Positions 5,285-18,989 of a DNA stretch of 24,897 nt are shown here, piece after piece. Origin of the DNA: a virus. The position numbers were made by a program, and so were the translations under genes. Under the pieces are notes generated by a model, which saw nothing but the letters and a program-made list of their open reading frames with translations, was not told where the DNA came from and made no database searches. The DNA lies in IMG/VR virus record IMGVR_UViG_3300044637_000688, positions 1 through 24,897 of that record. One strand, written 5' to 3'. The stretch's first letter is position 1. The number at the start of each line of letters is the position of its first letter.

Positions 5285-6667
5285 ATGTCGAATTTTGAGA
5301 AACGGCTGGCTGAGTTTGAAAGCAAAGTTCAGTCTGCTGTCGGTGAAATTGAAAAGGCCAAGTCGGCTGGTATCGTTGGTGGAGCAACCAGCTTCAGCAA
5401 CCGTAGCAACAGCGACGAGCAAAAACTTCTCGCTTCTTTCGGCGCTGCAAACGTCAAGCAGCTCCTTGAAGTGAACGTTGCTCATCCTCGCTTTGCACAC
5501 GTCAACGACAATCTGAAGTCTGCTGTTATGCAGCTCAAGAAAGACATGGACATCGCTCGCATGTCGGCTCAGATCTTCGGTGGCCAACCTCAAGACCGTG
5601 GCGACGAAGACCGCGCTGCTCACGTCAAAGGCGTTCTCGAAACTCCTTTCGCTCGCATGGTTGACCTCAAAGCTCGCTTGAAGAGCTTCGGTTCCACAGT
5701 TGCTGGCGACGGCGATGAGTGGGTTCCTACAGCAATCTCGGCTTCCTACATCGAAGAGTATGAGCTTGAGAAGAAACTGGCTGCTGCATTCCGCGAAATC
5801 CCAATGAGCAGCAATCCTTTTGAATTGCCTGTTCAGTATGGCGTGACCAAAGCTCGCTTGATTGGCGAAGGCGCTGCTGCAACCGACGCAAACTTCGGAA
5901 CTGAGAAGATTCAATTCTCGGCACCTAAATTGGTTGAATATTACCTACTGCCAGAAGAACTAAACGAAGATAGCGCCCCAGCCATACTGGAATTGGCACG
6001 AGCCGACGTTCTTACAAGCCAAATTAGGAGTGTAGAGGACTGCATCATCAACGGTGACACAACTGGAACACACATGGACAGCGATACAACTGCTGCAAGC
6101 AGCAACCGTAAGGCTTGGAAAGGCCTCCGTAAGCTCGCTCTCGAAGCAAGCTCGACTGTTTCCTTCTCTGGCGCTGGTGTTACCAAGGCTGGCTTGGACG
6201 CAATGCGCAAGCTGATGGGCAAATACGGCACGAATCCAAAAGAACTCGCATGGGTTGTTGGCCCAAGTGCTTACGCTCAACTCCTAAACATCGACGAAGT
6301 TGCTACTGTTGAGAAGTTTGGCCCACAGGCTACTATCCTCAGCGGTGCTCTCGCTGTGTTCCGCGGTATCCCAATCGTTGTTTCTGAGTTCATCCGTGAA
6401 GACGTGAACGCTGCTGGTGTGTACGATGGCTCGGTTGTCAACCGCACTGTGTTGCACCTCGCTAACGTCCGTCGTTTCTACCTCGGTCGTCGTCGTCCAA
6501 TCCGCGTCAAGGTTCAGCAAGACGCTCGTGCAGAGTACGATCGTTGGCAGTTGGTTTCTTATCAGCGCGTGGACTTCAAAGGCCACAAACAAGCTGGTCA
6601 GACCTACGCTGGTGGCGAAAGCTCAACTGAGCGTTCATCGATTCTCGGAATCAACATCCTCGCTTGA
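5285..6667 (+). CDS. Major capsid protein, HK97 fold
   Basis: This is the 460-aa shell protein. The N-terminal roughly 115 residues are helical and charged, like the delta domain that HK97-type capsids use as a built-in scaffold. The rest follows the family pattern: an EYELEKKLAAAFREIP region, an E-loop/P-domain, IINGDTTG, the A-domain signature WVVGPSAYAQLL followed by LNIDEV, GIPIVVSEF, and a C-terminal YLGRRRPIRVKV segment. The SD GGAGG (5276-5280) lies 4 nt before the ATG. Codons are strongly biased (GCT, CTC, CGT, GTT) as expected for high expression, except for an island at about 5935-6042 rich in rare codons. The gene is isolated between its own promoter-like element and a strong terminator. 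Maturation by the upstream protease is expected but no cleavage site was identified. Confidence 0.93.
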   Translation: MSNFEKRLAEFESKVQSAVGEIEKAKSAGIVGGATSFSNRSNSDEQKLLASFGAANVKQLLEVNVAHPRFAHVNDNLKSAVMQLKKDMDIARMSAQIFGGQPQDRGDEDRAAHVKGVLETPFARMVDLKARLKSFGSTVAGDGDEWVPTAISASYIEEYELEKKLAAAFREIPMSSNPFELPVQYGVTKARLIGEGAAATDANFGTEKIQFSAPKLVEYYLLPEELNEDSAPAILELARADVLTSQIRSVEDCIINGDTTGTHMDSDTTAASSNRKAWKGLRKLALEASSTVSFSGAGVTKAGLDAMRKLMGKYGTNPKELAWVVGPSAYAQLLNIDEVATVEKFGPQATILSGALAVFRGIPIVVSEFIREDVNAAGVYDGSVVNRTVLHLANVRRFYLGRRRPIRVKVQQDARAEYDRWQLVSYQRVDFKGHKQAGQTYAGGESSTERSSILGINILA

Positions 6668-6688: not shown

Positions 6689-6689
6689 G

Positions 6690-6719
6690 AGAGCAGCTTA
6701 ACCGCTGCTCTTTTTTTTT
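6690..6719 (+). terminator. Strong intrinsic terminator after the capsid gene
   Basis: AGAGCAGC (6690-6697) pairs over 8 bp with GCTGCTCT (6704-6711) around loop TTAACC. The T run extends from 6711 to 6719. It lies 23 nt after the capsid stop codon and isolates the capsid message from the genes downstream. Confidence 0.9.
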
Positions 6720-7995: not shown

Positions 7996-8193
7996 ATGAG
8001 TGATTCACAACGTCAGATATTCATCGACGGAATACCGATTGAATCAGTAAAAGATGACCAAAAATTGGTAACCTTCTTTGAAGAATTTGATGATACTATT
8101 TACCAATCTGCAAACAGGAAGTTCGAGCAGTTGTGCGAGAAATACGACAAGAAGGCGACGTTGACCATTCTTGTTAAATTTGAGGAGTCGTGA
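7996..8193 (+). CDS. Small acidic protein of unknown function
   Basis: This 65-aa product starts MSDSQRQIFIDG and ends ILVKFEES. An AGAGG ribosome site at 7985-7989 sits 6 nt before the ATG, which begins one base after the upstream stop codon. The in-frame extension to 7915 has no ribosome site and lies inside the upstream gene, so I chose the short form. It contains a beta-type start, a charged helix (FEEFDDTIYQSANRKFEQL) and a closing beta strand. Its stop lies 2 nt before the fibre gene, so the two are probably co-translated. It could be a small accessory or assembly factor for the neighbouring fibre; the sequence does not show which. Confidence 0.75.
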   Translation: MSDSQRQIFIDGIPIESVKDDQKLVTFFEEFDDTIYQSANRKFEQLCEKYDKKATLTILVKFEES

Positions 8194-8195
8194 AT

Positions 8196-10511
8196 ATGAC
8201 CACGCAGAATTTTCAGTTGATTCACTGGGATGGTACGAAGCAAAAACGTGTCGAATCCCAGACTATGGAACTCAAGCTCGGCAAGTTGGCCATTGGCTCG
8301 CTTGCTGACATCAAAGAAGTTGGCGGAAAGCTCGACGTCGGTGGAATTATTATCACTAATGTTGGCGCTCCTGCTGATGCTTCTGATTTGACCTCAAAGT
8401 CCTATGTCGATTCAACCGCTGCGACCGTAGCGTCTGCTGCTGTTGCTCCAACTCAAGCTGATCTGGATACACTTGAGGCGTCTTTCGCTCAAGAACTTCT
8501 TGATCGCGCCGCTGGCGATGCAAGCACATTGTCCTCTGCTCAAGCATACGCCGATCAAAAAGTCGCTGACTTGGTAAACTCAGCTCCAGCAGTGCTCGAC
8601 ACTTTGAAAGAGCTTTCTGATGCTCTTGGTGGAGATGCAAACTTTGCCACAACAATCACAAACTCTATCGCCTCTGTTCAAGCTGAAGTCGACGCAGAAG
8701 AGACAAGAGCCATTGCCGCTGATGCTGCGCATGACTCAAGACTCGATGCAATCGAAGAAAATCTTGAAACACAGATTACAACTGTATTTGAAAATACCGC
8801 TGGTGTTTATGCTGATGGCTTTCCTGGCACACAAGACACTTCTTTCCGCGAAGGCTGGTACTTCAAGAACTTGGTCAAAGGCAACAAGATCAACTGGTAC
8901 TTCTTTGATGGAGCTGCTGAAACGGCGACTGTTGCCAGCTTTGGTGCATACGCAGTTGTGACTTTTGATTCTGCTGTAAGCAAGCCGCACTTGGCTTTCT
9001 ACACGAAGCCAACTGGTTCCGGTGACGTAGGTGGATGGTATAAGAGCCGTAAGGTTTATGTTGCTTCTGGCTCTCCAGTCGTCGGCGTCAAGTATCTCAT
9101 GTACTTCGGAACAGAACCAAAAGTTCATCCAGAATTACCTCGATTGACAATGATTGCTGCCGAAAACTCGGTTGGGCCATTGGCTCCATCTGAAGAGATC
9201 ATGACAGCAGTTCTTGGTTCAGATAGCGGATCGAACGCGAACAATGTTCAATTCGTTTGCGAAGCTGTTGGCGTCAACGACTCCAACATCAAACGCAAAT
9301 TGCAGCTCAAAATTCGCAAGGCTTCTGAAGCTGCTTTGCAGGCTGAAATTTCACGCGCACAAGCTGCTGAGGCGGCATTGCAGTCCAGCGTTTCAACAAA
9401 TGCTTCTGCAATCTCTGCCGAGACAACTCGCGCAACAAATGCCGAAGCGAGCCTCACTGCTTCCTTGAACGCATTGAGTTCGACTGTTTCTTCTTTGTCT
9501 TCTGGTTCTGCCGCTGACATTGCCGCTGAAGAAGCTCGTGCTCTCGCTGCTGAGGCTGTTCTTCAAGGTGAAATTGATGCCGTCGAAGCAGACCTTGCAC
9601 AAGAAATCCTCGACCGCGCCGCCGCTGTTTCTGCTGAGCAATCACGAGCTGAAGCTGCTGAGCTTGCACTGCAAGGCGAAGTGGACGCTGTTGAAGCTGA
9701 TTTGGCTCAGGAACTCCTGGATAGAGCTGCTGCTGATACAACTCTTCAAGGCAATATCGACGCCGTTGCTGGCGACTTGGCACAAGAGCTTCTCGACAGA
9801 GCGGCTGCCGACACAGCGTTGCAAGGTGAGATTGATGCGGTTGAAGCTGACCTCGCTCAAGAGCTTTTGGACAGAGCCGCAGCCGTTGCAGCGGTTCAAG
9901 CTGAAGTTGATGCCGAAGAAATTCGTGCGGCTGCTGCTGAGTTGGCCCTTCAAGGTGAGATTGATGCCGAGGAAACTCGCGCATTGGCCGCTGAAGCTGC
10001 AATCCAAGCTGAAGTGGATGCTGAAGAACTCGCTCGTGCGGCAGCAGATACTGCTTTGCAAGGTGAAATCGACGCTGAAGAAAGCCGCGCACTTGCCGCT
10101 GAGTCGGACTTGCAAGATGAAATCGACGCCCTGGAAGTGGTCGTTTCTGAACTCAACCTCATCAGCAAGACTGCCGACGCTGCAATCTCTGCTGGCAAAG
10201 TCTGCTATATCAAGTCGAATGGCAACATCGACCTCGCTGACGCTGACTTGGATATGAGCGACTCTGCTCTCGTGATTGCTTCTGAAAGCATTGCTTCAGG
10301 CTCTTTTGGCAAGGTCGTCATCAAGGAAGGAACCGTTGTCGGTGGCTTCTCTGGACTTGTTCCAGGCAAGAAGTGCTTCGTTTCCAAGACCGCTGGTGAA
10401 GTGGTTCAGGCTTTGACAGGCTTCGAGTCAGGCAACTCAGTGTACTGTGTTGGCCGTGCTATCTCTGCAACAGAGATTGCGTTCCAGCCTGTCTATGAGT
10501 TTGAATACTGA
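8196..10511 (+). CDS. Fibre protein with coiled-coil repeats, located in the head module
   Basis: The protein is 771 aa. The N-terminus has hallmarks of phage fibres: NVGAPADASDLTSKSYVDS (about residues 54-72), then APAVLDTLKELSDALGGDAN near 130-150. A globular beta-type domain follows at about 195-375, containing YADGFPGTQD and KINWYFF (231-237), a pattern I associate with fibre domains of environmental phages. A long Ala/Glu-rich coiled coil of repeats (9561-10127) leads to a C-terminal beta module (about residue 650 to the end) with LVPGKKCFVSK and VYCVGRAISATEI. Trimerisation is likely. The ATG at 8196 is chosen over GTG 8190 because GAGGAG (8182-8187) is 8 nt upstream. Its site between the capsid and connector genes suggests a head fibre, although a tail or side fibre cannot be excluded. 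Confidence 0.85.
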   Translation: MTTQNFQLIHWDGTKQKRVESQTMELKLGKLAIGSLADIKEVGGKLDVGGIIITNVGAPADASDLTSKSYVDSTAATVASAAVAPTQADLDTLEASFAQELLDRAAGDASTLSSAQAYADQKVADLVNSAPAVLDTLKELSDALGGDANFATTITNSIASVQAEVDAEETRAIAADAAHDSRLDAIEENLETQITTVFENTAGVYADGFPGTQDTSFREGWYFKNLVKGNKINWYFFDGAAETATVASFGAYAVVTFDSAVSKPHLAFYTKPTGSGDVGGWYKSRKVYVASGSPVVGVKYLMYFGTEPKVHPELPRLTMIAAENSVGPLAPSEEIMTAVLGSDSGSNANNVQFVCEAVGVNDSNIKRKLQLKIRKASEAALQAEISRAQAAEAALQSSVSTNASAISAETTRATNAEASLTASLNALSSTVSSLSSGSAADIAAEEARALAAEAVLQGEIDAVEADLAQEILDRAAAVSAEQSRAEAAELALQGEVDAVEADLAQELLDRAAADTTLQGNIDAVAGDLAQELLDRAAADTALQGEIDAVEADLAQELLDRAAAVAAVQAEVDAEEIRAAAAELALQGEIDAEETRALAAEAAIQAEVDAEELARAAADTALQGEIDAEESRALAAESDLQDEIDALEVVVSELNLISKTADAAISAGKVCYIKSNGNIDLADADLDMSDSALVIASESIASGSFGKVVIKEGTVVGGFSGLVPGKKCFVSKTAGEVVQALTGFESGNSVYCVGRAISATEIAFQPVYEFEY
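9561..10127 (+). repeat. Coiled-coil repeat array in the fibre gene
   Basis: Units begin with LQGEIDA or a close variant and start at 9561, 9669, 9744, 9819, 9894, 9948, 10002, 10056 and 10110. Unit lengths are 36, 25, 25, 25, 18, 18, 18 and 18 residues, with a truncated last unit. The longer units carry DLAQELLDRAAA, the shorter ones AEExRALAAE. The lengths fit sums of heptads and hendecads (18=7+11, 25=14+11, 36=14+22). Confidence 0.85.
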
Positions 10512-10518
10512 TTGACCT

Positions 10519-10548
10519 GGCGAGGTGGAGAAATCTGCCTCGCCTTTT
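10519..10548 (+). terminator. Intrinsic terminator after the fibre gene
   Basis: GGCGAGG (10519-10525) pairs over 7 bp with CCTCGCC (10538-10544) around a 12-nt loop that contains GGA, followed by TTTT. It lies 7 nt after the fibre stop. The large loop and short T run suggest partial termination. The next gene's SD, AAAGGA (10552-10557), is immediately downstream. Confidence 0.75.
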
Positions 10549-10564
10549 ATCAAAGGATTGACCA

Positions 10565-11368
10565 ATGACTCAGCGACTCATTGCGGTCGATGACCAAACA
10601 GGAAAGCGCAGTCTTATCGCTGTGCCTTCCGGTGGTGGCATTGATCCAGACGTTCAAACATTCGCAGCCGATGGAACTTGGACAAAGCCAAACGGCTGCA
10701 AGCAAGTGCGAGTCATTCTGATTGGCGGTGGCGGAGGCGGAGGTTCTGGTTCTTACGGAACAACAGGCACTCAATGCGGTGGCGCAGGAGGCTCTGCTGG
10801 CCAGGTTGTCATCAAAGACCTCGTGGCAAGCGACTTGGCTTCAACCGTTGCCGTGACCATCGGAGCAGGTGGCGCAGGCGGAGTTGCTGTCTCAACCAAC
10901 GGCTACAACGGCAAGGATGGAACGGACGGTTCGCTTACTTCATTCGGTACACATGGCAAGGCATTTGGTGGTAAAGCTGGCGCAGGCGCAGGCAAGTTCT
11001 TATCTGGACGCATTACCATTCAATTCGCAGAAGGTGGCGCTGCAAGACCTGGTGGAACACGAGGCGCAGGCGGAAGAACGACTGCCGGAGAATCGGCTGC
11101 TGACACAACCGAAGCACCAGGCTCAGGAGGCGCAGGCGCAGGCATCACGACAACTGGACTTTCTGGCGGTTCCGGTGGAGTCAATCAAGCTGGTCTTGGT
11201 GGCAACGGCGGCAACGGTGGCGCTTCCAAGGCAACTGGCGCAGGTGACGCTGGTGTCGCAGGCTCAGGCTATGGAGCAGGCGGTGGAGGTGGTGGCGCGT
11301 CAAAAGGAACGGCTTCCGGTGCTGGTGGTAATGGCGCATCCGGCTATTGTGTCGTAATCTCGTACTGA
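10565..11368 (+). CDS. Glycine-rich adhesin-like protein
   Basis: This 267-aa protein starts with a short leader, then the familiar FAADGTWTKPNGCKQVRVIL strand region (about 33-52), followed by long glycine runs and repeated G-A-G-G, G-G-N-G-G and G-S-G-G blocks, and ends in GYCVVISY. Proteins of this design in phages and bacteria often form compact polyglycine packing and act as fibre-tip adhesins or surface proteins. The SD AAAGGA is 7 nt before the ATG. It lies directly after the fibre gene, separated by a terminator, so it may be a tip or partner of that fibre. GGCGCAGG-type DNA repeats recur through the gene, for example near 10978, 11061 and 11127. Function is inferred from composition and position. 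Confidence 0.8.
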   Translation: MTQRLIAVDDQTGKRSLIAVPSGGGIDPDVQTFAADGTWTKPNGCKQVRVILIGGGGGGGSGSYGTTGTQCGGAGGSAGQVVIKDLVASDLASTVAVTIGAGGAGGVAVSTNGYNGKDGTDGSLTSFGTHGKAFGGKAGAGAGKFLSGRITIQFAEGGAARPGGTRGAGGRTTAGESAADTTEAPGSGGAGAGITTTGLSGGSGGVNQAGLGGNGGNGGASKATGAGDAGVAGSGYGAGGGGGGASKGTASGAGGNGASGYCVVISY

Positions 11369-13131: not shown

Positions 13132-13156
13132 TTCGCCTTATGTTTTGGAGGACAAA

Positions 13157-14395
13157 ATGTCGAAGAATTATGCTTCAATCTATGCAAACACTGGTGACAG
13201 CTCGGCGCTGAACCAACGCTTTTATCTCAAAGAAGAAGTCATCAAAGGAACGATGGCTATTCCAGCAGCATCGGATTACTTCTTTGCATTGTCTGGCGGC
13301 TCCATCAGCTTCAGCCAGCCAATCACTTCCTCGCCTCACCGTTCTGGACGCCACAACAACAACACCATCAAGGAAAAGAAAGCTCTTGAATGGTCGCTGC
13401 CAACGATGGTCAACATCGACACTGCTGCGGCACAAGGCACCGGCGCTCTTGAGTCTGCGCTGCGCGTCCTTTGGAAATCGCTGCTTGGTCGTGAAACGGT
13501 TCCAGGCGCGGTGCAATATGACTCCGCTCAAGATCCAAGCGTCACGTTCAGCCTTTTTGAAGTGGGCGATAGATGGGCAAAACAGTCCTTTGGGAATTTT
13601 GTGGACGCTTGCGAAATCTCTCTTCCAGGCGACGGCCAATCGCAGTTGAGCTGGTCTGGCATGGGCGTTGAATCCTACTTGGTCGGCATCGGCAAATCGA
13701 CAATCAGCAACGATGGCGGTCAGACAGTCACAGTTCAGGCTGGCGAAGGCAAACGCTTTCCAGTTGGCGCTCGTGTCATGTTGGTTGAAGCTGACGGCTC
13801 GACTCGTTCCGCGGACACACCTTCTGGCTCGGCTCGTAAGGTTGTCTCTGTCTCTGGCGACGTTATCACTCTTGATGGCGTTGCTCTGGCTGATGCTGAC
13901 GGCTCATCGACTCCTGTTTATCTGTGCTACTTCGAGCCTGTCCTTGCAGGAACCGAAGGCATCGACAATCCGCAAACTGGCTTGCAAGGTACTTTCACAA
14001 GCTCCAGCATTCCAGGCAATCCTTGCATCCGTTCGGCAACCATCTCTGTCGCCAACGGCCATGAGATTGTGAACTACTGTTGGGGAACCGACGCAGCTTC
14101 TGGCTCAATCTTTGTTCCGGCAAGCCGTTTGGAAGTCAGCGTTTCAATCGAGCTGAACCTGAACCATGAGTTGGTTGAGTTCTATAACGCAGTGCAGTCT
14201 TTCGAGGCTCAAGACCTGAACTTCAAACTCGGCGACACAGCGTTGCGCTTCTTGGAAATCGACTTGCCAAAGGTCATCTTCCAAGTGCCTTCAATCGACG
14301 TGCCTGAAACTGGTTCGATTCCTGTCTCCTTCGAAGGAACCGCTTACCAGAGCGCACTTGACGCCGCTGATGAAATCGTGGTGTCATACCAGTAA
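13157..14395 (+). CDS. Major tail tube protein
   Basis: At 412 aa this is a long tube protein. It starts MSKNYASIYANTG, has an early YLKEEVIKGTMAIPAASDYF segment (23-42), a charged loop with HNNN (66-69), an EISLPGDGQSQLSWSGMG strand region (153-170), and ends with GSIPVSFEGTAYQS and DEIVVSYQ, as expected for tube subunits. Residues about 188-258 look like an inserted small beta domain (GKRFPVGARVMLVEADGS, ARKVVSVSGDVITLDG). It lies before the chaperones and tape measure, and no second tube or sheath gene is present. The SD GGAGG (13147-13151) is 5 nt before the ATG; an in-frame TTG at 13145 overlaps that SD and is rejected. Codon use is biased as in the capsid gene. The gene is insulated by a promoter-like element and a terminator. 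Confidence 0.85.
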   Translation: MSKNYASIYANTGDSSALNQRFYLKEEVIKGTMAIPAASDYFFALSGGSISFSQPITSSPHRSGRHNNNTIKEKKALEWSLPTMVNIDTAAAQGTGALESALRVLWKSLLGRETVPGAVQYDSAQDPSVTFSLFEVGDRWAKQSFGNFVDACEISLPGDGQSQLSWSGMGVESYLVGIGKSTISNDGGQTVTVQAGEGKRFPVGARVMLVEADGSTRSADTPSGSARKVVSVSGDVITLDGVALADADGSSTPVYLCYFEPVLAGTEGIDNPQTGLQGTFTSSSIPGNPCIRSATISVANGHEIVNYCWGTDAASGSIFVPASRLEVSVSIELNLNHELVEFYNAVQSFEAQDLNFKLGDTALRFLEIDLPKVIFQVPSIDVPETGSIPVSFEGTAYQSALDAADEIVVSYQ

Positions 14396-14421
14396 GCAAC
14401 GAGAGGACGGTATCCTTTCTG

Positions 14422-14452
14422 ACTCGATGGCCTTTGGCTGTCGAGTTTTTTT
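14422..14452 (+). terminator. Strong intrinsic terminator after the tail tube gene
   Basis: An 11-bp stem (14422-14432 with 14436-14446, two G-T wobbles) closes a TTT loop and is followed by a T run to 14452. The outer arms are ACTCGA and TCGAGT. It begins 27 nt after the tail tube stop codon. Confidence 0.9.
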
Positions 14453-14501: not shown

Positions 14502-14954
14502 ATGGCAATCAATTTGTCTGCTATTCAGGACTCTGTTTTCACATTCATCTCATCCAAAGATTCGGCTATTGGCAATCCGCAAAACTATGCGGCATACTTG
14601 GAATCGCTTGATGAGTCGCTGCTGGCGCTGAATGGCGAACCAACACGATTCCATCTCGCGGTTTCGTCAAAGCTCAAGGACGTGCTCGCTGCGAAAGATG
14701 GTCTGACCTCAATCGCAATGAAAGCCAAGGATGGCGGTGACATTCCACTTTACTCGCTGATGTATCAGCAAGTTCGGGTTTCTCTCAAAGACATCAAAAC
14801 TGGCGCTGAATCAATGTTCCGCAAAGGTGCCGACGGTCACGCTGCCGATGACCTTATGGCTGCCTTGGCTGCGAACGACATCTTGCCTGAGCTGTTTGCT
14901 GCATTGCAGAACAAACAACAAAACCGGAGTCCTGAAATCGCAAAAAAAGACTAA
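14502..14954 (+). CDS. Tail assembly chaperone (G-like)
   Basis: This 150-aa, mostly helical protein lies between the tail tube and tape measure genes, the standard place of the G chaperone. It begins MAINLSAIQDSVFTFIS and ends SPEIAKKD. The SD AAGGA (14490-14494) is 7 nt before the ATG; the open frame continues upstream to 14358 without a ribosome site, inside the tube gene and terminator. Its last codons hold a slippery A-AAA-AAA, and a -1 shift there joins it to the following frame to give a GT product of 304 aa. In lambda-type phages the G and GT proteins coat the tape measure and recruit tube subunits. The identification rests on gene order plus the frameshift signal. Confidence 0.85.
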   Translation: MAINLSAIQDSVFTFISSKDSAIGNPQNYAAYLESLDESLLALNGEPTRFHLAVSSKLKDVLAAKDGLTSIAMKAKDGGDIPLYSLMYQQVRVSLKDIKTGAESMFRKGADGHAADDLMAALAANDILPELFAALQNKQQNRSPEIAKKD

Positions 14955-15000
14955 GCGCACTTCTTGAGTTGACCTTTGCCGACCATGCAAAGCTCAAGAA
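14942..15000 (+). promoter_or_regulatory. Programmed -1 ribosomal frameshift site with stimulatory stem-loop
   Basis: The slippery heptamer A-AAA-AAA occupies 14942-14948 in zero frame (GCA AAA AAA GAC TAA). The -1 frame has a stop at 14933-14935 and then stays open to 15415. Twelve bases after the heptamer, TTCTTGAG (14961-14968) pairs perfectly with CTCAAGAA (14993-15000), and inside it CTTTGC (14974-14979) pairs with GCAAAG (14987-14992), leaving a 7-nt loop and a 5-nt bulge. The slippery site, stem-loop and frame relation together match a classic programmed frameshift. Confidence 0.85.
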
Positions 15001-15415
15001 AGAAGGACGCAACTTTGATTGCAATGGATGCAAGGTCGCCAAGCTCAGACGCTGCCAAGAAGACAGATGGGATTTCACCGACAAGGATGCGAACATCTTT
15101 CCGATGTACGTTCAGCAAGGCGGTGAACTTTACGGTTTCTGTCCTGCCAAGGCGACTTGGGATTCCTGGACAGTGACAATGTACCGCGCTCTTGTCTGTG
15201 CTGTGGCCACTGGCGCACAATGGAACTCTGGAGGCATCTCGGAACAACCAGAATGGTGGATTGACCTGCTATCATGGTTCTCGACGCGCTATGATATGAG
15301 CAACTTCAGCCACAAGGCTAGAATGGTGCTAGGTGATGGCGACAAAGCCAAGACTCAAGGAGTGAGCAAGAATGGCAATCAGCAAAGACCAATTAACCGT
15401 CGAGGTCGTTCTTGA
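14948..15415 (+). CDS. Tail assembly chaperone T part, made by -1 frameshift as GT fusion
   Basis: This frame has no credible start of its own: the first candidate is a TTG at 14969 without a ribosome site. It is read by a -1 shift at 14942-14948, adding 155 residues to the G protein, starting RLSALLELTFADHAK. The T part has a Cys-containing segment, C-N-G-C-x-V-A-K-L-R-R-C (metal binding is possible but unproven), several Trp residues (ATWDSWTV, PEWWIDLLSWF) and a basic tail. The Trp-rich helical pattern after position 15150 is common in T-type chaperones. The 3' end overlaps the tape measure gene by 44 nt. In lambda the minor GT product is needed for tail assembly at a fixed ratio to G. Confidence 0.8.
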   Translation, partial: RLSALLELTFADHAKLKKEGRNFDCNGCKVAKLRRCQEDRWDFTDKDANIFPMYVQQGGELYGFCPAKATWDSWTVTMYRALVCAVATGAQWNSGGISEQPEWWIDLLSWFSTRYDMSNFSHKARMVLGDGDKAKTQGVSKNGNQQRPINRRGRS

Positions 15416-18400
15416 TTCCTCCGGTGCCATCAAAGGCATAAAAGACCTCGAAGGCCAGTTTCTTGCCTTTGACAAGGTCGTAGCACAAAGCTCAAAGACG
15501 ACAGACAAAGCCAATCAATCCACTGGCAAGGTAGGCGATGCGTTCGCTGGCTTGTCAGCAACGCTTTCCAAGGCTGCGTTGCCATTGCTGGCAGTTCAAA
15601 CAGCAGTTGCAGGAGTGACACAGGTCTTTGGCGTACTTTCAAACACGCTTGGTTCATTCGTCAATGACTTTGCTGCTGCCGAACGCGCTCAAACTCTTCT
15701 GACGCAGGCTATCGAGAACTCAGGTGGTCGCATCCAGAACAGTGCTGATGCCTGGGGCGCTTACCTTGATCAGCTTCAAGAGGTCAAAGCCGTTGATGCT
15801 GACGTTCTCCGAGGACTTGTCGCACAAGCCGTCCAAATGGGCTTCAGTGAAACGCAAATCAAGTCATTGGTAGAAGCATCCATTGGCTTGTCAAAAGTGA
15901 CTGGTGACTCTCTTGATGGTTCGTTTCAAAAGCTGATTGGTACCACGCGAGGAATGGCTCGTGGCTTGTCGGCCATGATTCCAGAACTTCAGAATCTTAC
16001 AGATGAGCAACTGCGCTCAGGCGATGCCTTTGCCATCGTTGCAGGCAAGTACAAATCCGCTGCTGATGGTGCTGGTTCATACACATACTCGGTCAAACAA
16101 GCTAGCTTGGCGGCCGGAGAACTGAGCGAAGACGTTGGTCGCTTGATTGTCGAGTCTGTGAACCTTCGAGGCGCAATGGACGCTGCAACAAGCGTCATTA
16201 ATGGCGTCCGAAACGCAATCGCTGCTGTCGATATGGAAGCGTTATCCAAGAGCTTCAAAGAGTTCATCTCAGTCGCTGGCCCAATTGCCTTGGTCATTGG
16301 CGCTGCCGTTGCAGGCTTCACTGGATTGACCGCTGCTGCTCATGCTGCCGTGATTCCAGTGGTGCTTCTCATTGGAAAGTTCGCCTTGATTGCTGCCGGA
16401 ATCGCTGGCGTGATTGCTGCCATTGAAATCTTGGTGAGAAACACCGATCTTCTCGGCAATGCTTTTGCAATCGTCGCCAACGCAATAGGAATGCTGCTGC
16501 TCAATCCGCTTGAGAATGCTGCTTTTGCGCTGAGAGATTTCTTCGGACTGTTTGGCGATAACGCGATGACGAAGGCGGCAGATCAAGTCTTCAAAGGTCT
16601 TGAGAAGGCAGTCAACTCTCTGAAGGACAATGTTTCCAAGAACTTCTCCACGATCAAGAACAACATCGACACAGGTTTCTCTGGCCAGGTCATCAAGCAA
16701 GCATCAAATCTGATGAATGGATTCTCTGGTGAGACAAAGAAGGCTGATGTTGCTCTCAAAGCACTTGGTGAGACTGGCGCACGAGTCAAAGTCATCGACG
16801 AGAAGGCCATCGAAAAAGCCAACGCAGCTTTGAAAGACATTCAAAAGCAGACAGACGCTTTGAAGTTGTCGGCTGCGCTGACTGGCCAAGACGAAATCAC
16901 GCAAATCAAAGCAAAAGCTGAAGAGCAGATGCGCGTCATCGACTTGAAGCGGAAAGAGTTGGCTGACCAAGGCATCTTGAACAGCAAACACAAAGAGGCG
17001 CTCGAAGCTCAAAAGCAAGCCGTGATTGAGAATCGCAACGCCTCCATTCAAATGGAATATCAAAAGAAGATTCTCGAATCACAGAAAGAACCATTGGCTT
17101 CCTTGAAGAACATGGTGGAAGAAACCAACAAGCAATACCAGCAAATCGAAGACTCGAATCAAGGCACTTTTGAAATCATCGACAAACAAACTGCTCGCGA
17201 ACTGGACAAGATTGCAGCATTGGAAAAGCAGCTCGAACTGACTGGCGCTTTGACAGAAGAGAATCAAGCAGCTTTGGACAAGGCCAAGGAAGCGATCCTT
17301 GAGATGCAAAGCGAGAAGACAGGCGCAGCCATCATGTCTGGCATCAACAGCGCAATCGCAGCAGCTCAAGGTGGTGCAGATGCGTTAGTTGGCAACCTGA
17401 TCAACCAGATTGGCAAAGCGTTCGGGCCTAAAGGTGAAATGATTGCTGGTGTGGTCAACTTGCTACGCAAAGGAAAAGAGTTCACAAAGCAACTTGGCCA
17501 AGACCTAGTTGCCATCATTGCTGACTTGCCACGCATGATAACAGAAGGCGCTGTTGGCTTAATTGAAGGATTGGTTGAAGGCCTTAGCAAGCTGCTTGGC
17601 GATCCAAAGGCTGTGCAGGCCTTCGTTCAGAGCCTTGTGAAGATGATGCCAACCGTCATGGCTGCGCTGGTTCGTGCGGTGCCTCAGCTTGCAATCGCAT
17701 TGTCGCGTCCATCGTTCTGGATTGGCGTTGTAAAGGCTTGGGTCACTGCCACCATTGATGGCTTCGGCGAGGTCTTCAAATCAATCGGTGATGCACTTGG
17801 AACCATTGGCCGTGAACTTGGCGATGCCATTGGAAAGGCACTCACTGATGGACTCAAGATCTTCGAGCAAGTCGGAACAATCGTCTGGAACGGCCTCAAG
17901 CAAGCCTTCACATGGCTTGGTGATTCATTGGCTTCCATTGGCGATATGCTCTGGAACGGCATCAAAGGCGCGTTCGAGAAGGTCGGAAACTTCTTCGAGG
18001 AGTTGTTCCGATTCGAAGGCGGTGGAACTGGCGCAGTTGAAGACTTCTTGGGCTTTGACTTTCCTTGGTTCGCATTCGCAGAAGGCGGTGTGGTTCCTGG
18101 AAAAGCCACTGTCTTTGGCGATTCTTACAAGAACGACACTGTGCCAGCTTTGCTTTCTCCTGGCGAAGTGGTCATTCCTCGCAGCAAGATGCAAGATCCG
18201 GCCAATGCGCGACTCGTTTCAGCCATCATGAAAGGTGAAGAGGTTGGCATGCACGCTCGCGGCTTGATTGGCAACATCAAGGACGTGTTCTCTGGCAAGA
18301 AGAGCGTAGGTGATGCACTGAAAGACGCTGGAACAGCTATCGTCGATGGTGTGAAAGAAGGCTTTCGTGCAATTGGTGACGTGCTCACGCCTGACTGGAT

Positions 18401-18989
18401 TGCTGACCTGTGGGATTCATTGAAGCGGTTCATCAGCAACATCGACCTGAAGAAGCTCATTTCTGATCCGTGGAACACCATCAAAGGCGCAATCAAGGCA
18501 TCTCTCGACTTCTTGTCAGAGCCATTCAAGAAGATGATGTCGCTCGATAACAAAGGCAAAGGCGGTGGACGAGCTGATAACTACAAAGGCTCGAACCGTC
18601 CTGAAGCAATGCTCGGCCAGATTGACGTATCCGAGGTTCTAAAAAACATCAGAATTGAGCTTGGTGCGATTGGACGTGCAAACGGTGGTTTCATTCCTGG
18701 AACTGGAAACACTGATTCCGTTCCTGCACTGCTGACACCAGGAGAGTTCGTCATCAACAAAGCAGCAGCTCAGAGCCTTGGAAGTGGCTTGCTCAACCAA
18801 CTCAATGCTGGTCGCATTCCGATGCAAGAATCTGCTCCAGTTTTCAACATCAATCTCAACATCGAGACAAAAGATGCTCTGGATGCTAATTTCATCCGAA
18901 GCACTTTGATTCCAACAATTAAAAGCGAATTGAAAGCAAGCTCTCTGCGTGGTGACTTTGTTCTCAGTGCGAAAGGAGTTCGCTCGTGA
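15372..18989 (+). CDS. Tape measure protein
   Basis: At 1205 aa this is the longest gene in the window and sets tail length. It starts inside the T frame with AAGGAG at 15357-15362, 9 nt before the ATG. Visible parts are an N-terminal helical region, a hydrophobic segment at about 300-356 (IALVIGAAVAGF, then a second Ala/Val-rich stretch), a long coiled coil at about 477-653, further hydrophobic helices near 755-800, and two copies of a Gly-Gly-V/I-P-G ... S/T-P-G-E-V/F-V-I motif (residues 904-936 and 1104-1125). No lysozyme or peptidase motif is evident. Using the roughly 0.15 nm per residue known for tape measures, the tail would be near 180 nm. The stop overlaps the next gene's GTG start. 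Confidence 0.92.
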   Translation: MAISKDQLTVEVVLDSSGAIKGIKDLEGQFLAFDKVVAQSSKTTDKANQSTGKVGDAFAGLSATLSKAALPLLAVQTAVAGVTQVFGVLSNTLGSFVNDFAAAERAQTLLTQAIENSGGRIQNSADAWGAYLDQLQEVKAVDADVLRGLVAQAVQMGFSETQIKSLVEASIGLSKVTGDSLDGSFQKLIGTTRGMARGLSAMIPELQNLTDEQLRSGDAFAIVAGKYKSAADGAGSYTYSVKQASLAAGELSEDVGRLIVESVNLRGAMDAATSVINGVRNAIAAVDMEALSKSFKEFISVAGPIALVIGAAVAGFTGLTAAAHAAVIPVVLLIGKFALIAAGIAGVIAAIEILVRNTDLLGNAFAIVANAIGMLLLNPLENAAFALRDFFGLFGDNAMTKAADQVFKGLEKAVNSLKDNVSKNFSTIKNNIDTGFSGQVIKQASNLMNGFSGETKKADVALKALGETGARVKVIDEKAIEKANAALKDIQKQTDALKLSAALTGQDEITQIKAKAEEQMRVIDLKRKELADQGILNSKHKEALEAQKQAVIENRNASIQMEYQKKILESQKEPLASLKNMVEETNKQYQQIEDSNQGTFEIIDKQTARELDKIAALEKQLELTGALTEENQAALDKAKEAILEMQSEKTGAAIMSGINSAIAAAQGGADALVGNLINQIGKAFGPKGEMIAGVVNLLRKGKEFTKQLGQDLVAIIADLPRMITEGAVGLIEGLVEGLSKLLGDPKAVQAFVQSLVKMMPTVMAALVRAVPQLAIALSRPSFWIGVVKAWVTATIDGFGEVFKSIGDALGTIGRELGDAIGKALTDGLKIFEQVGTIVWNGLKQAFTWLGDSLASIGDMLWNGIKGAFEKVGNFFEELFRFEGGGTGAVEDFLGFDFPWFAFAEGGVVPGKATVFGDSYKNDTVPALLSPGEVVIPRSKMQDPANARLVSAIMKGEEVGMHARGLIGNIKDVFSGKKSVGDALKDAGTAIVDGVKEGFRAIGDVLTPDWIADLWDSLKRFISNIDLKKLISDPWNTIKGAIKASLDFLSEPFKKMMSLDNKGKGGGRADNYKGSNRPEAMLGQIDVSEVLKNIRIELGAIGRANGGFIPGTGNTDSVPALLTPGEFVINKAAAQSLGSGLLNQLNAGRIPMQESAPVFNINLNIETKDALDANFIRSTLIPTIKSELKASSLRGDFVLSAKGVRS

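Follow-up and report, generated by a model that had tools for sequence, protein, structure and literature searches.

The window analysed here is the entire 24,897-base virus record IMGVR_UViG_3300044637_000688, whose genes include a terminase, a portal and tail genes. The terminase resembles those of Tunturiibacter and Thermus phages distantly (about 31% or less), and close homologues were found neither in 50,697 phage genomes nor in GTDB genomes. Two overlapping open reading frames, designated G and T, sit between the tail tube gene and the tape measure gene, and a candidate recoding signal lies near the end of G. The features of the locus are listed below.

13145..14395, plus strand: tail tube protein gene, the upstream neighbour of G; phrog_290 (labelled minor tail protein), with Phage_tube_2 below its cut-off
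14502..14954, plus strand: G ORF, putative short tail assembly chaperone of 150 aa, lying between the tail tube and tape measure genes, with homologues in 38 junctions
14926..14929, plus strand: GGAG core of a Shine-Dalgarno (SD)-like CCGGAG, a possible 5' stimulator 12 nt before the heptamer (duplex -6.1 kcal/mol)
14936..15415, plus strand: T ORF in the -1 frame, adding 155 residues after the predicted slip to give GT (304 aa)
14942..14948, plus strand: A_AAA_AAA slippery heptamer, in phase with G and conserved in 38/38 junctions
14952..14954, plus strand: zero-frame stop TAA ending G, 3 nt past the heptamer
14955..15010, plus strand: predicted downstream hairpin with a 6-nt spacer (helices 14955-57/15008-10, 14960-65/15000-05, 14969-72/14994-97 and 14974-79/14987-92)
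14961..15000, plus strand: alternative stem proposed by an earlier note (14961-68/14993-15000 plus 14974-79/14987-92)
15372..18989, plus strand: tape measure protein gene (phrog_58), the downstream neighbour, overlapping the end of T

The zero frame of G runs from the ATG at 14502 to the TAA at 14952-14954 and reads GC_A AAA AAA GAC TAA across the slip site. The -1 frame opens at 14936, directly following a TGA at 14933-14935, and ends at 15415. A shift at the heptamer would join 149 residues of G to 155 residues of T, generating a 304-aa GT fusion with the predicted junction A-K-K-R-L-S. The earlier note on this DNA had given these same product sizes (150 aa for G, 304 aa for GT) and the same junction, in agreement with the ORF geometry; the stop codon that it placed six bases from the heptamer actually begins after 3 intervening nucleotides. 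The run at 14942-14948 is the only A7 on the plus strand of the 24.9 kb, and only two other in-phase X_XXY_YYZ heptamers are present in the predicted genes of the window.

Comparisons with uncultured viruses provide evidence that this arrangement is maintained. Relatives were gathered by profile searches and by a DNA pattern for a T motif, followed by HMM confirmation and removal of duplicates, which yielded 38 distinct G-T junctions, the window's own included, forming 25 clusters at 75% T identity. First, T lies in the -1 frame relative to G, with an in-phase A_AAA_AAA/G within the overlap, in all 38 junctions (in L047 the heptamer is A_AAA_AAG), as the -1 slip at A_AAA_AAA in tail chaperone genes that the earlier note proposed would predict for relatives. 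Other long ORFs from the same loci contain 3 in-phase A_AAA_AAR sites among 40,224 codons, a background rate that predicts about 0.04 such sites for the 510 codons of the overlaps. Second, the G stop codon falls 0 or 3 nt past the heptamer in 34 of the 38 junctions. Third, a tail tube homologue lies upstream of G in every junction, and downstream a tape-measure homologue is present wherever one can be detected, which is the case for the window and for many relatives. Fourth, 37 of the 38 junctions contain no T-frame start codon ahead of the slip, and conservation of T sets in right at the slip. Frame, heptamer, stop, synteny, absence of start codons and conservation of T, taken together, show that the frame transition is under selection. 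Suppression of synonymous changes near the slip is not evident in the comparison of the window with L004.

Neither G nor T has a match in Pfam, PHROG or PDB sequence searches, and the family has none by tblastn in 50,697 phage records or in the bacterial genomes searched. The AlphaFold model of G (pLDDT 72) has no PDB match in a fold search; its best BFVD match is an uncharacterised Caudovirales protein (E 9.6e-8, TM 0.69), and its matches to annotated tail chaperones in BFVD are weak only. The model of T is poor (pLDDT 56). Position, ORF geometry and the conserved slip point to G and T as putative tail assembly chaperones, with no recognised chaperone homologue by sequence. The T domain also contains four cysteines (residues 25, 28, 36 and 65; 15020-15142) in the arrangement FxCxxC...RRC...FCP, which are invariant in 26 aligned relatives as well and form a possible metal site.

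The MFE fold of the RNA after the slip is a long hairpin of -22.7 kcal/mol (z -4.0 versus dinucleotide shuffles; codon-permutation p = 0.005-0.023), and its predicted spacing of 6 nt falls within the dnaX-type range of 5-9 nt. This excess of folding supports the general proposal of a downstream stem-loop as stimulator. The particular two-part structure put forward by the earlier note fares less well: its 8-bp and nested 6-bp stems are indeed perfect and begin 12 nt past the heptamer, but together they reach -13.6 kcal/mol, against -22.7 kcal/mol for the MFE fold, and overtake it only when the 12 nt immediately past the heptamer are unavailable. In L004 and L005 (82% identity), the 8-bp stem loses two of its eight pairs, with an energy of -6.5, while the long hairpin retains 18 of 19 pairs and the sequences fold to -24.1; the 8-bp stem was rejected as a conserved stimulator on these grounds. 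Because that stem is not upheld and the best fold begins 6 nt past the heptamer, the usual distance, a 12-nt spacer that tunes the G:GT ratio is unsupported. The long hairpin is kept throughout L002-L005. No compensatory double changes in it were found among five closely related sequences, and its exact pairs are predicted from retention and energy, not covariation. An Rfam scan of the window returned no match.

Across the family, the folding excess peaks directly past the slip, where the mean z of -1.02 +/- 0.29 over the 25 clusters is the lowest of 29 positions (t-test p 0.0005 versus codon-permuted T genes; window z -3.17). Of the individual members, no more than about a third to two fifths have significant downstream structure, and both hairpin strength and the structures themselves vary by clade; a GCAATCA/TGATTGC helix about 8 nt past the slip, for example, is present in L025, L028 and L030.

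A second candidate stimulator, overlooked in the earlier note, is the SD-like CCGGAG, which precedes the slip by about 12 nt and whose pairing with the anti-SD sequence (-6.1 kcal/mol) has a codon-permutation p of about 0.03 in the window, L002 and L003. Among cluster representatives, the excess of anti-SD affinity over the codon-permuted control is greatest at a spacing of 9-10 (z -3.9 at 10 and -3.3 at 9, among 38 positions; z -3.4 and -2.8 when the window clade is left out). The element is absent in several family members, and the family-wide excess is suggestive when the 38 positions are allowed for.

G/GT frameshifting of the lambda type is a widely conserved feature of long-tailed phages (PMC5009743), and we consider a -1 ribosomal frameshift of this type, producing G and GT, to be the most probable reading of the signal, with a probability of about 0.87. 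Ribosomes translating G would arrive at A_AAA_AAA, where in a minority the tRNA-Lys pair in the P and A sites would slip back one base, aided by the hairpin 6 nt downstream and probably also by the SD-like sequence. Slipped ribosomes would read on in the T frame to complete GT, and the remaining ribosomes would add Asp and stop at once to release G. If the proteins act as in lambda, the tape measure protein would be coated by G together with the G portion of GT, whose T portion would recruit tail tube subunits. In E. coli, A_AAA_AAA is less shifty than A_AAA_AAG (PMC5009743). Reporters have given 6-7% for phage tail chaperones and 10% for one A_AAA_AAA case (PMC3711429), values which suggest that GT may amount to a few percent here.

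An identical product would arise if RNA polymerase stuttered on the A-run, so that mRNAs with one extra A were decoded normally into GT. Such slippage is documented for A-runs of more than 7 (PMC3711429) and for 9 As (PMC5009743), and A8 or A9 runs are present in 32 of the 38 junctions, for which polymerase slippage is a serious rival. The window and its clade have A7 only, short of a homopolymer of 8-9 or more, and there the explanation is weak. It does not require an in-phase A_AAA_AAA/G, yet the run always holds one, and the RNA structure excess is strongest in the two A7 lineages; stuttering on an A-run would not call for a 3' hairpin at this position. Overall, polymerase slippage appears improbable as the account of the window signal. 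Both A7 lineages (the window clade and L079, which are independent and lie apart on the tree) carry strong hairpins, as would fit a compensation between run length and stimulator; with only these two lineages, the trend across clusters has the expected sign but is not significant (Spearman 0.34, p 0.09; for a longer span, 0.20, p 0.33). A more speculative and rather unlikely extension is that the mechanism of the shift drifts within the family, A7 members using ribosomal slippage with strong stimulators and A8-A9 members, needing little or no hairpin, perhaps using polymerase slippage. If true, the family would be a natural series in which one recoding mechanism replaces another while product geometry stays constant.

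Ribosomal frameshifting also accounts for the locus better than two remaining explanations. T could be a separate protein begun by translational coupling at an internal start in the G/T overlap, e.g. the in-frame TTG at 14969, 14 nt past the G stop codon. This is very improbable: a T-frame start ahead of the slip is almost universally missing, the first internal starts occupy differing codons among relatives (the first ATG of the window is codon 53) while T is conserved from the slip onward, and the heptamer would be left unexplained. Homopolymer runs are prone to error in some sequencing methods, but the possibility that the A7 is fortuitous, or that a broken gene was misassembled, can practically be dismissed, as the same frame relation and heptamer recur in all 38 junctions from many metagenomes and T is still under protein-level constraint.

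The window also contains several terminator-like sites. A strong intrinsic terminator (12-pair stem, 3-nt loop and T-run) lies at 14421-14452, between the tail tube gene and G, and was likewise missed by the earlier note. A hairpin and T-run of differing sequence occupy the same position in about 25 of the 38 junctions. These sites suggest that transcription may be attenuated downstream of the gene for the abundant tube protein, as a possible second layer of stoichiometry control beside the frameshift. Elsewhere, a strong terminator-like site at 6689-6719 (9-pair stem, then T9 at 6711-6719) directly follows ORF 5285-6667, which encodes 460 aa and is in the major capsid gene position. Another terminator-like site, at 10519-10544, follows a 773-aa ORF (8190-10511) in which degenerate, coiled-coil-like repeats of the type 'ALQGEIDAVEADLAQELLDRAAADT' are numerous. 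The 267-aa ORF at 10565-11368 has a very glycine-rich C-terminal part (GGGGGASKGTASGAGGNG).

In long-tailed phages, both the mechanism and its role in tail assembly have long been known. The novelty lies in a G/T family that Pfam, PHROGs, PDB sequence searches and tblastn of 50,697 phage records do not recognise, together with the four invariant cysteines of T. Identification of the putative tail chaperone genes and the predicted GT fusion would allow correct annotation in an uncultured phage group in which G and T lack Pfam and PHROGs matches. The 38 natural variants, with A7, A8 or A9 runs and strong or weak hairpins, offer material for studying how run length and RNA structure affect frameshift rate.

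The slippery sequence of lambda is G_GGA_AAG, unlike the A_AAA_AAA here. In other respects the layout is that of lambda gpG/gpGT, with two ORFs between the major tail protein and the tape measure, T in the -1 frame and a slip near the end of G (PMC5009743), although G and T have no detectable sequence homology to the lambda proteins, and the window additionally has a predicted hairpin on the 3' side of the slip and, on the 5' side, a candidate SD-like element. The tail chaperone clusters of the HK97 type share a -1 frameshift, measured there at about 6-7% (PMC3711429), but neither G nor T matches them at the level of sequence families. Another parallel is the E. coli dnaX cassette, where a lysine-codon slip site likewise comes with a hairpin on its 3' side; it also has an SD-like element upstream, for which the window clade carries a candidate. 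The dnaX heptamer is A_AAA_AAG instead of A_AAA_AAA, the proteins are unrelated, and the outcome is the reverse, since at this locus reading in the zero frame ends immediately and it is the -1 frame that is long.
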